Shown: positions 23,527-30,397 of the stretch, piece by piece
Position numbering within the stretch: position 1 is the first letter of the stretch
Layout: each line of letters starts with the position of its first letter
Origin: Ardenticatenia bacterium
GTDB taxonomy: Bacteria > Chloroflexota > Anaerolineae > Aggregatilineales > JALXEW01
NCBI GenBank assembly: GCA_027069285.1
Contig: JALXEW010000212.1
Coordinates: 14,517 to 46,845 of the forward strand
Reading direction: 5' to 3'
Length of the DNA stretch: 32,329 nt
Notes under the pieces: model-generated
Databases searched by the model: none
What the model was told of the DNA's origin: nothing
Seen by the model: only the letters and a program-made list of their open reading frames with translations
Made by a program: the position numbers and the translations under genes

Positions 23527-25620
23527 TCAGGCTTTCTTCTCGGACAGCACCTCGCCCAGGATGCCGGTAGGCCTGAAGATCAGGACCATAACCAGCAGGC
23601 CGAACGAGATAACGTCCTTCAACTGCGGAGCGATCCCAAGCAGCGCCGGTGCCACCGATTCGACAAGTCCGAGGAAGAACCCGCCGAACATAGCGCCCGG
23701 AATGTTACCGATGCCGCCCAGAACCGCAGCCGTGAACGCTTTCAGGCCTGGTATGAAGCCCATAGTATGTGTGACCTGGCGGGTGTAGAGCGCGAAAAGG
23801 ACGCCCGCAGCTCCCGCCAATGCCGCGCCCAATACGAACGTCGTCACGATCACGCGATCCACATCAATGCCCATCAGCGCTGCAACTTCCTTATCCTCGG
23901 CGACCGCACGCATGGCCTTACCTGCCTTTGTATATTGCACAAACCAGAACAGGCCCAACATCATCAGGACTGCGGCCACGAAGACCAGGAAGTAGATCGG
24001 GCGGATTATCAGCTTGATGCTGCCGGTTACATCTACCCACCTGATCTCAAAACCGGCTTCCTCGGCCATCGCCTCCATCAAATCCACCTCAAAGCCGTCT
24101 ATGTCACCGGTCTCGCGCAAAGTGGTCAGCGGAGGCTGATTGGCATTGATGCCGATCACAATCAAATCCACATCAGGGTACGACTCGCCGGACGCATCCG
24201 GCTCAAACGGCAATTCCGCCGGCTCCACCCCAAACCAACGGCGATACGCCTTAGCATACTCGCCGTTGGCCACCACGGCGTGGAGCGCATGGTTGAGCAC
24301 CTCGGCCAGGTCATCACGGTTTGGCGATAGGGCTATCGCGACCGGCCTCTCGATGATCGGGGCGCCCACCGGCACCAGCTCCATGCGCCAGTACTCTATC
24401 TCCCTGGCGGCGACCGGCAACTCCTCCACCGCCGCGTCCACCTCACCGTAGAGCACTGCCAGGAATGCGTCCTTAGTCGAATGGAAGGTGACCACCTCGA
24501 CGCCATCCAGCCGATGAGCCGCCTCCTCTGCCAGGCCGCCGTTGGTCACGGCCACGCGGCTACCGGGCCTCAGATCATCCGGCCCGGTGATAGTTTCGGC
24601 ATCATCCTCACGCACCACCAGCACCGGCCCGACGTCCAGGTATGACAAGGTCTGCGCGTCATCCGAGCTGATCCCAGCCATCACCGCGTCGAAATCCCCC
24701 CCATCCAGACGGTGTATCAGCCACTCATCGCCCATCTGTGCGGCCTGCAGGTCACCCGGAAGTGACCACAGCTGGCCGACGACCAGCACCGCCATGATCA
24801 GGATCGTGATCACCGGGGTGAGATTATTAGATGCCCACTTCAGGATGCCGAGGGGTGAGAGTTCAACCTCAGATTCCTTGAATTTGCGGCTCAGGCGCAG
24901 GCCCAGGTAGACGGCCAAAGCCACGGCAGCCGCGATCACCACCGCCCGGATGATCACCGCCCCCCAGGGTGAGATCCACAGGGTGACGGGATAGCGCCCG
25001 CTGATCAGATCTAGGCCCAAAGCCACGCGGCGTCCGGTTTCGGGGTCAACTGCCCATTCGAGGTCGCCAAAGACCTGCGGCAACACGTACAAGTGCACGT
25101 TTGGGTAGTTCTTAGTGCCGGTACCGAAAAGCCCACGGAATGCCTGTTGCAAGAAAAGCGACGCTCCGATTGCGGTGATCAGCGGGACCAGGCGTGGGGC
25201 TTTGCGGAGTGGGCGGTATGCGATCCGCTCCAGCAGCACCGCCACGATGACCGATGTGGCCATCGCGACCAGGAAGACGACCGTCACGGCCAGCAGGGTA
25301 TGCTCTTCCAGGAAGCCGCTCTCATCCATTGCGGCGATGACGAAGTAGCCGATATAGGTGCCGGACATAAAGACTTCGCCGTGGGCGAAGTTAATCATAA
25401 ACAGGATGCCGTAAACCAGGGTGTATCCGAGTGCGATAAGCGCGTAAATACCGCCCTGGGCAAGGCCGAAGATGAGCTGGCGTATAAATGTGTCAAAGCC
25501 ATATGCGCCGGACGCCAGATTGCCAACGGCCCTGATCACCACGAACGCCAGCATCGCCAGGCCCATCCCCCATATGATGACGTTGGTCAGAGTAAGGCGA
25601 CGCAGGAAACGTAAACCCAT
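23527..25620 (-). CDS. livH: LivH-type permease with internally inserted solute-binding-protein-like domain
   Basis: N-term IYALIALGYTLVYGILFMINFAHGEVFMSGTYIGY and C-term QYTKAGKAMRAVAEDKEVAALMGIDVDRVI...GFIPGLKAFTAAVLGGIGNIPGAMFGGFFLGLVE are LivH. The central region contains family-3 SBP motifs. One uninterrupted 697-aa ORF, over twice the usual LivH length. Confidence 0.93.
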   Translation of the reverse strand: MGLRFLRRLTLTNVIIWGMGLAMLAFVVIRAVGNLASGAYGFDTFIRQLIFGLAQGGIYALIALGYTLVYGILFMINFAHGEVFMSGTYIGYFVIAAMDESGFLEEHTLLAVTVVFLVAMATSVIVAVLLERIAYRPLRKAPRLVPLITAIGASLFLQQAFRGLFGTGTKNYPNVHLYVLPQVFGDLEWAVDPETGRRVALGLDLISGRYPVTLWISPWGAVIIRAVVIAAAVALAVYLGLRLSRKFKESEVELSPLGILKWASNNLTPVITILIMAVLVVGQLWSLPGDLQAAQMGDEWLIHRLDGGDFDAVMAGISSDDAQTLSYLDVGPVLVVREDDAETITGPDDLRPGSRVAVTNGGLAEEAAHRLDGVEVVTFHSTKDAFLAVLYGEVDAAVEELPVAAREIEYWRMELVPVGAPIIERPVAIALSPNRDDLAEVLNHALHAVVANGEYAKAYRRWFGVEPAELPFEPDASGESYPDVDLIVIGINANQPPLTTLRETGDIDGFEVDLMEAMAEEAGFEIRWVDVTGSIKLIIRPIYFLVFVAAVLMMLGLFWFVQYTKAGKAMRAVAEDKEVAALMGIDVDRVIVTTFVLGAALAGAAGVLFALYTRQVTHTMGFIPGLKAFTAAVLGGIGNIPGAMFGGFFLGLVESVAPALLGIAPQLKDVISFGLLVMVLIFRPTGILGEVLSEKKA

Positions 25621-27273: not shown

Positions 27274-28134
27274 TCACGGCACCAGGTACAACGCCGGCAA
27301 ACCATCCGGTGGCGGCGGCTCCATCGGCACATGATTTGGCACCACGAACGAGAACGGATGTGCCAGGTTCAAAACGTAGCCGTGCACGAAGCGCTCCATA
27401 TCCCGGCGGCGCAAAGTGGACTCGCCATGCCTTTCCAAAACCATCATCAGGTATTCCAGGCGCTGCTGGGTATAGCGCCGCCTCAACATGCTCAACGTCG
27501 CCTCCATCACCCTGCGTTGCCGCTCCAGGGCCGAGATCGGGTCATCGGCGCCGTGAACGTAATCCATCGCCTCCTGTCCGTCCATGCCCACCCCGCCGAT
27601 CTCAACCGGCCCGTAGCGATTGATCGCACATATGAACGCATACTGGTCCACCACCAGCACGGCATCCGCCCCAGGCTCCAACTCCACCCCCAGCCCCATC
27701 CTGCTCACCAGCTCCTCGATCCTATCGGCCACCATATGGGCCGCGACCGTCAGATTAGGGTTATCGAAAGCGTCCACCAGCCGTCTACCCTCCCAATCCA
27801 GCCATAGCCACGGCGAAAAGCCCACCACCGATACCCCGGCATATCCCGGCACTATGCGAACCAGCCACAGCCCCATCAGGTCGTAAACCGGGTCGCTCAT
27901 CGGGTCGTTCCAGACCCAGGCCAGCAATATACTTACCGTTTCCTCGTCAAAGAGGCTCGTCTCGTCCCCATCGCGGTACAGCTGCACTTCGACTCGCTGG
28001 CGGGTTGGCCTGGATAGCAACCTCCCCACACCCCAGACCGCCAATGCACAAACAATGCCCGCCATCACACTGGCGAGCAGGAAAATCAACCTCTTCCAAA
28101 ATTCCAGACGACGATTGTAGTATGGGTAACCCAT
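27274..28134 (-). CDS. Membrane-anchored, divergent LytR-CpsA-Psr (LCP)-like protein
   Basis: N-terminal TM. VVDQYAFICAINRYGPVEIGGVGMDGQEAMDYVHGADDPISALERQRRVMEATLSML resembles the C-terminal LCP region (DG..AL.Y.R....D..R..RQ); the rest is very divergent. Confidence 0.45.
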   Translation of the reverse strand: MGYPYYNRRLEFWKRLIFLLASVMAGIVCALAVWGVGRLLSRPTRQRVEVQLYRDGDETSLFDEETVSILLAWVWNDPMSDPVYDLMGLWLVRIVPGYAGVSVVGFSPWLWLDWEGRRLVDAFDNPNLTVAAHMVADRIEELVSRMGLGVELEPGADAVLVVDQYAFICAINRYGPVEIGGVGMDGQEAMDYVHGADDPISALERQRRVMEATLSMLRRRYTQQRLEYLMMVLERHGESTLRRRDMERFVHGYVLNLAHPFSFVVPNHVPMEPPPPDGLPALYLVP

Positions 28135-28137
28135 CGG

Positions 28138-29277
28138 TCAATCAGGTACATCGGGCATGGCATCCGCGCTATGGCGCTCCGCCGCAATCGGCGCCTCATC
28201 CCAAACCCGCACCGACTGGCGCATACGGGCCAGGGCCATGAACGCAGGCCGAGCCGTCCAATCGGGGCGCAGTAAACTGAATGCCCCCATTATATCACCG
28301 GCTGGGACCAAAGTGGCGTAATTGAAATTATTGACCACCATCAGGCCCACAAAAGGCTCGTGGGATGCTATCTCAAACGCCCTGACCAGGTATTCCGCCT
28401 GCTGCTCCTCCGTCACATACCCCTGACCGCTGCCGTCTGCCGAGGCCCATCCGACCATAGTCAGCCACATCTGAGCCTCGGCATCCCCATACTCCACCAT
28501 TACCTGTCTCAGCTCCTCGTAGTGCAAGAAGAAACGCTGTGACCCTTCGAAGTTACCCCCCTGACTGCCGGGCAAAGCATCCGGTGGGTTATCGTAGCCG
28601 TTCAGATGCACTCCGAGCACATCAAACCACTGGCCTCCACCGGCACGATAAAGCTCCGTCAGATAAGCCACGTCATCCATACCGTTTACGCCCTCTTCCC
28701 CCAACACCGGCTCCAACCCCCCGGATACCACCACGCACATCGGATCGGACGTTTTGAGCGCGTTATAAGCCGTCTGCAACAAGATGGCGTACCCGGCAGG
28801 GCTTATTCCGTTACTCCCGGCCCGATTCACCCCCGGCCATATCTCATACGCAGCGATCCTGCCACGGTAGCGGGTGGCCATCTCCGTCAGGAACGCCGAC
28901 AGGGCGTCCAGCCTGACAGGCAGGCCGGAGCCACCGTCATCCAACGCCCAATCCGGCGCGTCGTAGATAGCAACCAGCACCTTTATCCGAAAAGGCCCCA
29001 CCGCAGCAACAAGTATATCCAAAGGCTCCCAATAATATTGCCCCTCGACAGGTTCCACGTCGGCCCATCTGACCGCCTGGCGTAGCCAGTCGAACCCCAT
29101 CCCGGCCACCCCGTTGATCACCGGCTCCGGATCCTGTCCCCACAGCTGCACGGCCACCCCATACCCGAATCCGCTCTGTGCAGATATGCTAATACATGCC
29201 GGCCATAACATCAGCAACATCACAAAAACCATTACGATCATCAGCAACCGGATCATATTCGCCTTTGCCGGGGTCAT
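28138..29277 (-). CDS. GH-A-clan glycoside hydrolase-like protein (GH5/GH39-like TIM barrel), probable pseudoenzyme
   Basis: GMGFDWLRQAVRWADVEPVEGQYYWEPLDILVAA, YRGRIAAYEIWPGVNRAG, AGYAILLQTAYNALKTSDPMCVVVSGGLEP, WFDVLGVHLNGYDNPPDA, MWLTMVGWASADG: fold motifs of cellulase/beta-galactosidase-like proteins with catalytic positions altered. Confidence 0.75.
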   Translation of the reverse strand: MTPAKANMIRLLMIVMVFVMLLMLWPACISISAQSGFGYGVAVQLWGQDPEPVINGVAGMGFDWLRQAVRWADVEPVEGQYYWEPLDILVAAVGPFRIKVLVAIYDAPDWALDDGGSGLPVRLDALSAFLTEMATRYRGRIAAYEIWPGVNRAGSNGISPAGYAILLQTAYNALKTSDPMCVVVSGGLEPVLGEEGVNGMDDVAYLTELYRAGGGQWFDVLGVHLNGYDNPPDALPGSQGGNFEGSQRFFLHYEELRQVMVEYGDAEAQMWLTMVGWASADGSGQGYVTEEQQAEYLVRAFEIASHEPFVGLMVVNNFNYATLVPAGDIMGAFSLLRPDWTARPAFMALARMRQSVRVWDEAPIAAERHSADAMPDVPD

Positions 29278-29300: not shown

Positions 29301-29501
29301 TCAGCCGATGCGGAAGAAAGATAACGTCATAAGGGTTGCGAGGAAGGCGGAAACGTAGAATATCGCCCCCCATAGGATCATTGGCTTATAGCTGCGATGC
29401 AGGTACAACCAGGTAGTCATGCGGGCAATTTCTCGCCAGAATAGCAGTTTCAGTCCATAACCTAAGTCATTCAATGCCTTTTTGTATCTTTCTGTTGTCA
29501 T
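29301..29501 (-). CDS. Small membrane protein (~66 aa), unknown function
   Basis: MTTERYKKALNDLGYGLKLLFWREIARMTTWLYLHRSYKPMILWGAIFYVSAFLATLMTLSFFRIG; one hydrophobic segment; 23 nt upstream of the GH-like gene on the same strand. Start could be ATG 29510; the ORF-track N-terminal extension is unlikely. Confidence 0.55.
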   Translation of the reverse strand: MTTERYKKALNDLGYGLKLLFWREIARMTTWLYLHRSYKPMILWGAIFYVSAFLATLMTLSFFRIG

Positions 29502-29518
29502 ATTACCCATCCAGGCGC

Positions 29519-29539
29519 CCCGATTCTGTACGAATCGGG
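29519..29539. promoter_or_regulatory. Perfect inverted repeat in divergent intergenic region (operator or 5'UTR hairpin)
   Basis: CCCGATTC-TGTAC-GAATCGGG between the small membrane protein gene and ecfT. Confidence 0.45.
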
Positions 29540-29623
29540 TTGTAATCCACTTGTGATCAGGATAGAACTTCCACATACTGCCATGCAAGTTCCGTGCCAT
29601 TGGACTCGAAAACGGAGGGAAAT

Positions 29624-30397
29624 GTGGGAATATCCGCCGACCTGTACGCGCCTGGACGCTCGTGGCTGCACACCCTCGATCCGAGGGTGAAGCTTTGGGG
29701 AACATTCCTGGGCATCATCGCCGGGCTGGCCACCGCCGACCCTTTTCCCTTACTCGGCGGCCTGGTGGGATTGAACGCGCTGCTGCTGTGCTGCGGGGTT
29801 CCGTTCCGACGTCTGAGGTGGATATGGGGAGCGATCACACCGATCATGGTGCTGATACTGGTACTTCAGCCGTGGTTCGCCCCGTCCGGCACCGCCATCT
29901 TCCGGCTGGGGCCGCTGCACCTGACCGTTGGCGGGATCACAAGCGGACTGACCTTTGCCGTACGGGTGGCACTTCTCGCATTCATAGTGGCAACTCCGTT
30001 GCTGAGCACCAGACAGGACACCCTGGTACACGGGATGGTCAAACTCGGCCTTCCATACACGTGGGGGCTGACGATCACCCTATCGCTGCACTACCTGCCG
30101 ACCGCATACGAAATGTTCCAGAACATACGGCAAGCACAGGAAGTACGCGGCTGGACATCCGGACGTGGGAACCTGTTCGAGCGGGCCAGGAGCTATATGC
30201 CGATACTGGTCGGCGTGGTGATCTCATCGCTCCGGTTGGCGGATCAGCTTGCATTGGCAATGGCAGCGCGTGGGCTTGGCGCCGGCCCCCGCACACCACT
30301 ACACGAAATCAAAATGCGCCCGGCGGATTGGGGCGCCGCGTTCGCCATCACCGCGATCACAGCCGCATTCCTGGCCGGCAGACTCGCCGGGCGATAA
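29624..30397 (+). CDS. ecfT: Energy-coupling factor transporter transmembrane protein EcfT family
   Basis: WLHTLDPRVKLWGTFLGIIAGL, AQEVRGWTSGRGNLFERARSYMPILVGVVISSLRLADQLALAMAARGLGAG (EcfT Ala-Arg-Gly motifs). Start set to GTG 29624 after GGAGGG. Confidence 0.88.
   Translation: MGISADLYAPGRSWLHTLDPRVKLWGTFLGIIAGLATADPFPLLGGLVGLNALLLCCGVPFRRLRWIWGAITPIMVLILVLQPWFAPSGTAIFRLGPLHLTVGGITSGLTFAVRVALLAFIVATPLLSTRQDTLVHGMVKLGLPYTWGLTITLSLHYLPTAYEMFQNIRQAQEVRGWTSGRGNLFERARSYMPILVGVVISSLRLADQLALAMAARGLGAGPRTPLHEIKMRPADWGAAFAITAITAAFLAGRLAGR

Follow-up and report, generated by a model that had tools for sequence, protein, structure and literature searches.

Among known pseudo-glycosidases, YKL-39 binds glycans and klotho binds partners (PMC7828330). 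For the family GH39, a text search combining it with pseudoenzyme found no such case. The best fold match, and a close sequence match, of the protein described here is PslG of Pseudomonas aeruginosa (GH39, PDB 4ZN2/5BX9/9G17), an active endo-beta-glucanase in which Glu165 is the acid/base and Glu276 the nucleophile (PMC11912335); PslG residues are given as PDB chain numbering plus 26. The two proteins have the same barrel, with the active-site motifs at the same positions and an identity of about 22%; where PslG carries its two glutamates, however, the present protein has Gly and Met, together with a shorter beta-4 loop. Another described system is BcGH39 of Bacteroides cellulosilyticus (PDB 5JVK), which among solved structures is the closest by sequence (E 2.9e-9) and the fourth by fold; unlike our protein, it has WNEPN and TEIGW as its site motifs. 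Here, we describe one gene within a window (the whole stretch of DNA analysed, 32,329 nucleotides) from an Ardenticatenia bacterium, the sequences compared being draft MAGs. With moderate confidence, this gene is regarded as a member of a selected, secreted, GH39-derived pseudo-glycosidase clade that probably binds a cell-surface or exopolysaccharide glycan, perhaps together with an LCP-like neighbour.

Reading frame, fold and family

The gene (28138..29277, minus strand) is an uninterrupted reading frame of 379 aa, with its ATG at 29277, a stop codon ending at 28138 and a AGGTGAGG-like ribosome site upstream of the start. Its codon-position GC (0.64/0.44/0.69) is similar to that of the neighbouring genes, with a GC3 below theirs. 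An earlier sequence-only reading of this DNA had claimed an intact frame, and the run from ATG to stop and the codon signature bear this out. Residues from about 1 to 33 (29179..29277, minus strand) resemble a signal peptide by sequence and are modelled as a helix (3-24) followed by a low-confidence segment (25-34); no cleavage site was predicted in this N-terminus. The barrel begins directly after it, at residue 37, and the N-terminal LysM that characterizes the LysM-GH39-like clade of the order is absent from this protein. Upstream, a small ORF (29301-29705, minus strand) with a C-terminal membrane helix and no Pfam match ends 24 bp before the gene. Elsewhere in the window, a 697-aa branched-chain permease-like protein (23527-25620, minus strand) matches BPD_transp_2 in two stretches and SBP_bac_3 (family 3 solute-binding) in another two, one of them (487-532) lying just ahead of the second permease stretch, which makes it an unusual fusion or insertion.

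The 379-aa protein was modelled by AlphaFold2, from a 70-row alignment of it and related loci, as a (beta/alpha)8 barrel of eight strand/helix units (pLDDT 87.5, pTM 0.83). When the PDB was searched with this model (Foldseek), PslG came first (E 2.4e-19, TM 0.67), followed by BcGH39 and then by GH10, GH5 and GH39 xylosidases, the top four matches being PslG and BcGH39. By sequence, phmmer against the PDB found PslG (5bx9/4zn2, E 7e-9) and the Bacteroides protein (5jvk, at the E-value given above), and a profile search gave E 5.8e-34. Sequence and fold homology thus place the protein in GH39, among PslG-like members. None of the Pfam GH families passed its curated cut-off (the best, GH42, scored 12.9 bits against a cut-off of 21), and no NCBIfam family was matched. 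The GH-A fold proposed previously has been borne out by the predicted barrel, by the sites lying at beta-4 and beta-7 and by PslG as first Foldseek match; of the GH5/GH39-like affinity proposed with it, the GH39 part holds, with PslG nearest, and GH5 was dropped on the phmmer and Foldseek results.

Catalytic sites, orthologs and residue 189

In the phmmer alignment, WPGVN stands opposite PslG WNEPN and TMVGW opposite PslG TEWGW. Gly149 therefore aligns with Glu165, and Pro148-Gly149 (28831..28836, minus strand) replace the Asn-Glu of the acid/base motif; Met274 (28456..28458, minus strand) aligns with the nucleophile Glu276. These are the codon positions that the sequence-only reading had given. 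In the model, site 149 follows strand beta-4 (143-146) and Met274 lies within beta-7 (269-277), which are the GH-A positions; the GH39 acid/base Glu after beta-4 (WNEPN) and the nucleophile Glu at beta-7 (TEWGW/TEFGW) are both absent there. The loop after the acid/base motif lacks 4 residues that are present in the orthologs and in the paralog L002 from the same genome, so that, in the alignment, the motif is partly deleted as well as substituted; the substitution claimed for this site was correct but incomplete. Of the 32 family columns conserved at 88% or more in 67 relatives (a set that leaves out the window protein and its two orthologs), 27 are retained, in agreement with the earlier claim that both glutamates are replaced while the surrounding fold motifs are kept. 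The five altered columns are N148, E149, the Glu of the REW loop (lost in the 4-residue deletion), A199 and E274, and by our own count the chance that five random changes among 32 columns include both catalytic ones is about 2%. Since both glutamates are strongly conserved across 365 family domains (acid/base in 352, nucleophile in 337), a chance explanation of the double loss is unlikely. A single-base assembly error cannot yield both altered sites together with a loop deletion, and the orthologs come from independent assemblies.

A class-wide search found only two orthologs, both at 45% identity, in the Ardenticatenales MAGs CSMAG_849 and GLR113. A single-sequence scan of genome contigs returned no relatives, and a three-sequence alignment query returned these two MAGs. 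In trees restricted to the order, the window protein formed an isolated long branch; when members of the class were added, it was placed with the orthologs, and the grouping has 99% SH-aLRT in a tree built with the motif columns left out. Rare residues common to the three proteins include G56, L225, Y253 and V275. The orthologs have the same layout, that is, a signal-like N-terminus and no LysM, and at the two catalytic sites they read YQIWQDPN and WLTQVGWAS. Homologs altered at both sites do exist, although with WQDPN and TQVGW rather than the WPG and TMVGW of the window protein. No synteny was found between the window and the ortholog loci, the latter lying near SufS and FtsZ-like genes. On the contig of one ortholog, a barrel-like protein beside the FtsZ-like gene (L144, 4329-5801, minus strand) may be a further degenerate protein of this glycosidase-like kind.

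A comparison of the two orthologs gives a dN/dS of 0.14 for the domain (0.13 with the domain cut differently) versus 0.53 over the first 60 codons, the signal-peptide segment. Together with the alteration of both sites, these domain values support the earlier proposal that the gene has been retained as a pseudoenzyme. Because the window gene lies on a long branch (0.71-1.2) without a close relative, selection on it is inferred from the orthologs, and the maintenance that, with a kept fold and lost catalytic residues, defines a pseudoenzyme is measured in the orthologs and extended to the window copy. The long branch, the loop deletion, a GC3 of 0.69 below that of the neighbours and the lack of a same-family genome for a selection test would also suit a duplicate that is losing its function, its open frame being a remnant. 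This is improbable, however, as the frame is intact with a codon signature, the changes in near-invariant columns cluster at the active site and the orthologs are under purifying selection. Rather than a broken enzyme, the product is thus probably a functional protein that does not cut sugars and perhaps binds them.

Another feature of the clade is an acidic residue after strand beta-5, Glu189 in the window protein (28711..28713, minus strand) and Asp in the orthologs. No Asp or Glu occupies this position in any of the other 362 domains, nearly all of which have Ala, Ser, Thr or Gly, and the residue may reflect pocket remodelling or a relocated carboxylate. The latter would allow a new enzyme, an inverting hydrolase or transglycosylase using residue 189 alone or with D106, D229 or the Asp that the orthologs carry in place of the acid/base Glu. 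The acidic 189 in 3/3 clade members and 0/362 others, and that ortholog Asp, are what such an enzyme would predict; but the residues that might supply a second carboxylate are not common to the clade (the orthologs have G and S in place of D106 and D229), M or Q occupies the nucleophile position, and this analysis found no GH39 enzyme with a site of that kind, so that we consider a new activity unlikely. The preferred reading remains that of a glycan-binding pseudo-glycosidase. Its ancestor would have been a GH39 (PslG-like) endo-glycosidase of Anaerolineae/Chloroflexota, giving rise to an exported (beta/alpha)8 protein in which, with acid/base and nucleophile lost, the retaining GH39 reaction is not expected. 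The small LysM-less clade that it forms with the Ardenticatenales orthologs, in which the same sites are altered, is kept by purifying selection, as measured in those orthologs, and the protein would act outside the membrane, its old cleft holding a glycan of the cell surface or of an exopolysaccharide.

The LCP-like neighbour

Four bp downstream of the pseudo-GH39 gene starts a gene (27274..28134, minus strand) for a 286-aa protein with an N-terminal membrane helix and a putative, divergent LCP (LytR-CpsA-Psr)-like domain; a sequence search gave a weak hit to an LCP gene. When compared with 33 LCP proteins by hhalign as a single-sequence query, it reached 84-90% probability and a score of 49.9 over 194 columns; among the controls, about 240 ORFs scored at most 37.3 (12 columns), 30 shuffles 26.9 and the reversed sequence 17.8. 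In our reading of the hhalign alignment, the SIPRD and YxR-x-R arginines are absent. No Pfam family, PF03816 included, matched at E up to 10, nor did TIGR00350; a structure model made without an alignment has a pLDDT of 45; and the search for homologs in the class gave none that was convincing and no ortholog, leaving the gene an orphan.

In the genus g85, too, an intact LysM-GH39 gene is followed at 4 bp by an intact LCP gene, and because of this equal spacing the GH39-LCP arrangement, though rare, may be old. A conserved operon across the family was considered and rejected, as the only adjacent cases in a set of 366 GH39-like ORFs, each followed by 1 kb or more of sequence, were two copies of one locus, to which a second g85 genome (L124) adds another. 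The two Ardenticatenales orthologs do not adjoin an LCP gene. The LCP-like product of the downstream gene is a possible partner, with which the pseudo-GH39 may act. Taken further, the barrel could bind protein instead of glycan, its ligand being this neighbour or the active GH39 paralogs, as in klotho or heparanase-2. Such a role would fit the short spacing to a gene whose product itself departs from the usual Arg positions, the intact g85 pair and the seven paralogs in the same genome; yet neither ortholog adjoins an LCP gene and no ortholog of the neighbour was found in the class, and we hold a purely structural or regulatory role to be quite unlikely. It is likewise improbable, as a more elaborate version, that a GH39/LCP module of the Anaerolineae handling glycopolymers at the cell surface has become a non-catalytic pair, a pseudo-GH39 with a cleft remodelled around residue 189 and a pseudo-LCP, serving as glycan receptor or wall-glycopolymer organiser.

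LysM-GH39-like relatives and known pseudo-glycosidases

Each of the 61 genomes covered by the first search for relatives contained members of the family, and seven paralogs occur in the window's genome, none above 39% identity to the window protein. A further comparison within the Anaerolineae is with a LysM-GH39-like clade of 33 members (97% support), made up of the own paralog L002, which retains both catalytic Glu, and 32 relatives from the order. These proteins have a homologous barrel at about 35-40% identity and, in contrast to the window protein, have at least one LysM repeat at the N-terminus, an architecture seen in those clade ORFs that were read and, for L002, by Pfam. At least one catalytic Glu has been lost in 14 of the 33, versus 8 of 137 other members (Fisher 9e-7, with kinship among sequences not corrected for), and parsimony requires a minimum of 7 changes at the nucleophile and 3 at the acid/base within the clade. 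Mostly one site is lost and rarely both. Pairs that include such members have dN/dS of 0.06-0.17 where computable, and this recurrence of catalytic loss under low dN/dS indicates that the GH39 fold is useful without full catalysis. Across this clade (L009-L039, L058 and L060), the nucleophile is the residue most often lost, with K, Q, R, G, A, S or D in its place. Some Anaerolineae loci (L165, L171, L174, L178, L188, L192, L196 and L199) have GH39-like domains or genes in tandem, three to four in a row, and family homologs are present in Mycobacterium, Mycolicibacterium, Rhodococcus and Subtercola (L205-L225).

The window protein and its orthologs are related to a LysM-GH39 family with many losses of catalytic Glu under purifying selection, and members with both glutamates, one or none form a natural series for measuring when binding replaces cutting. 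Counts of GH genes in Chloroflexota MAGs may accordingly overestimate hydrolytic capacity. By analogy, the glycan-binding or scaffolding roles put forward in the sequence-only reading are plausible. In YKL-39 (GH18), klotho (GH1) and heparanase-2, a glycosidase fold has likewise outlasted the loss of catalysis, and the protein is reused for binding or regulation (PMC7828330, PMC12406646). These are animal proteins of other GH families, as are the best-known pseudo-glycosidases in being animal, whereas the GH39-like protein described here is bacterial and belongs to a clade conserved across two orders.
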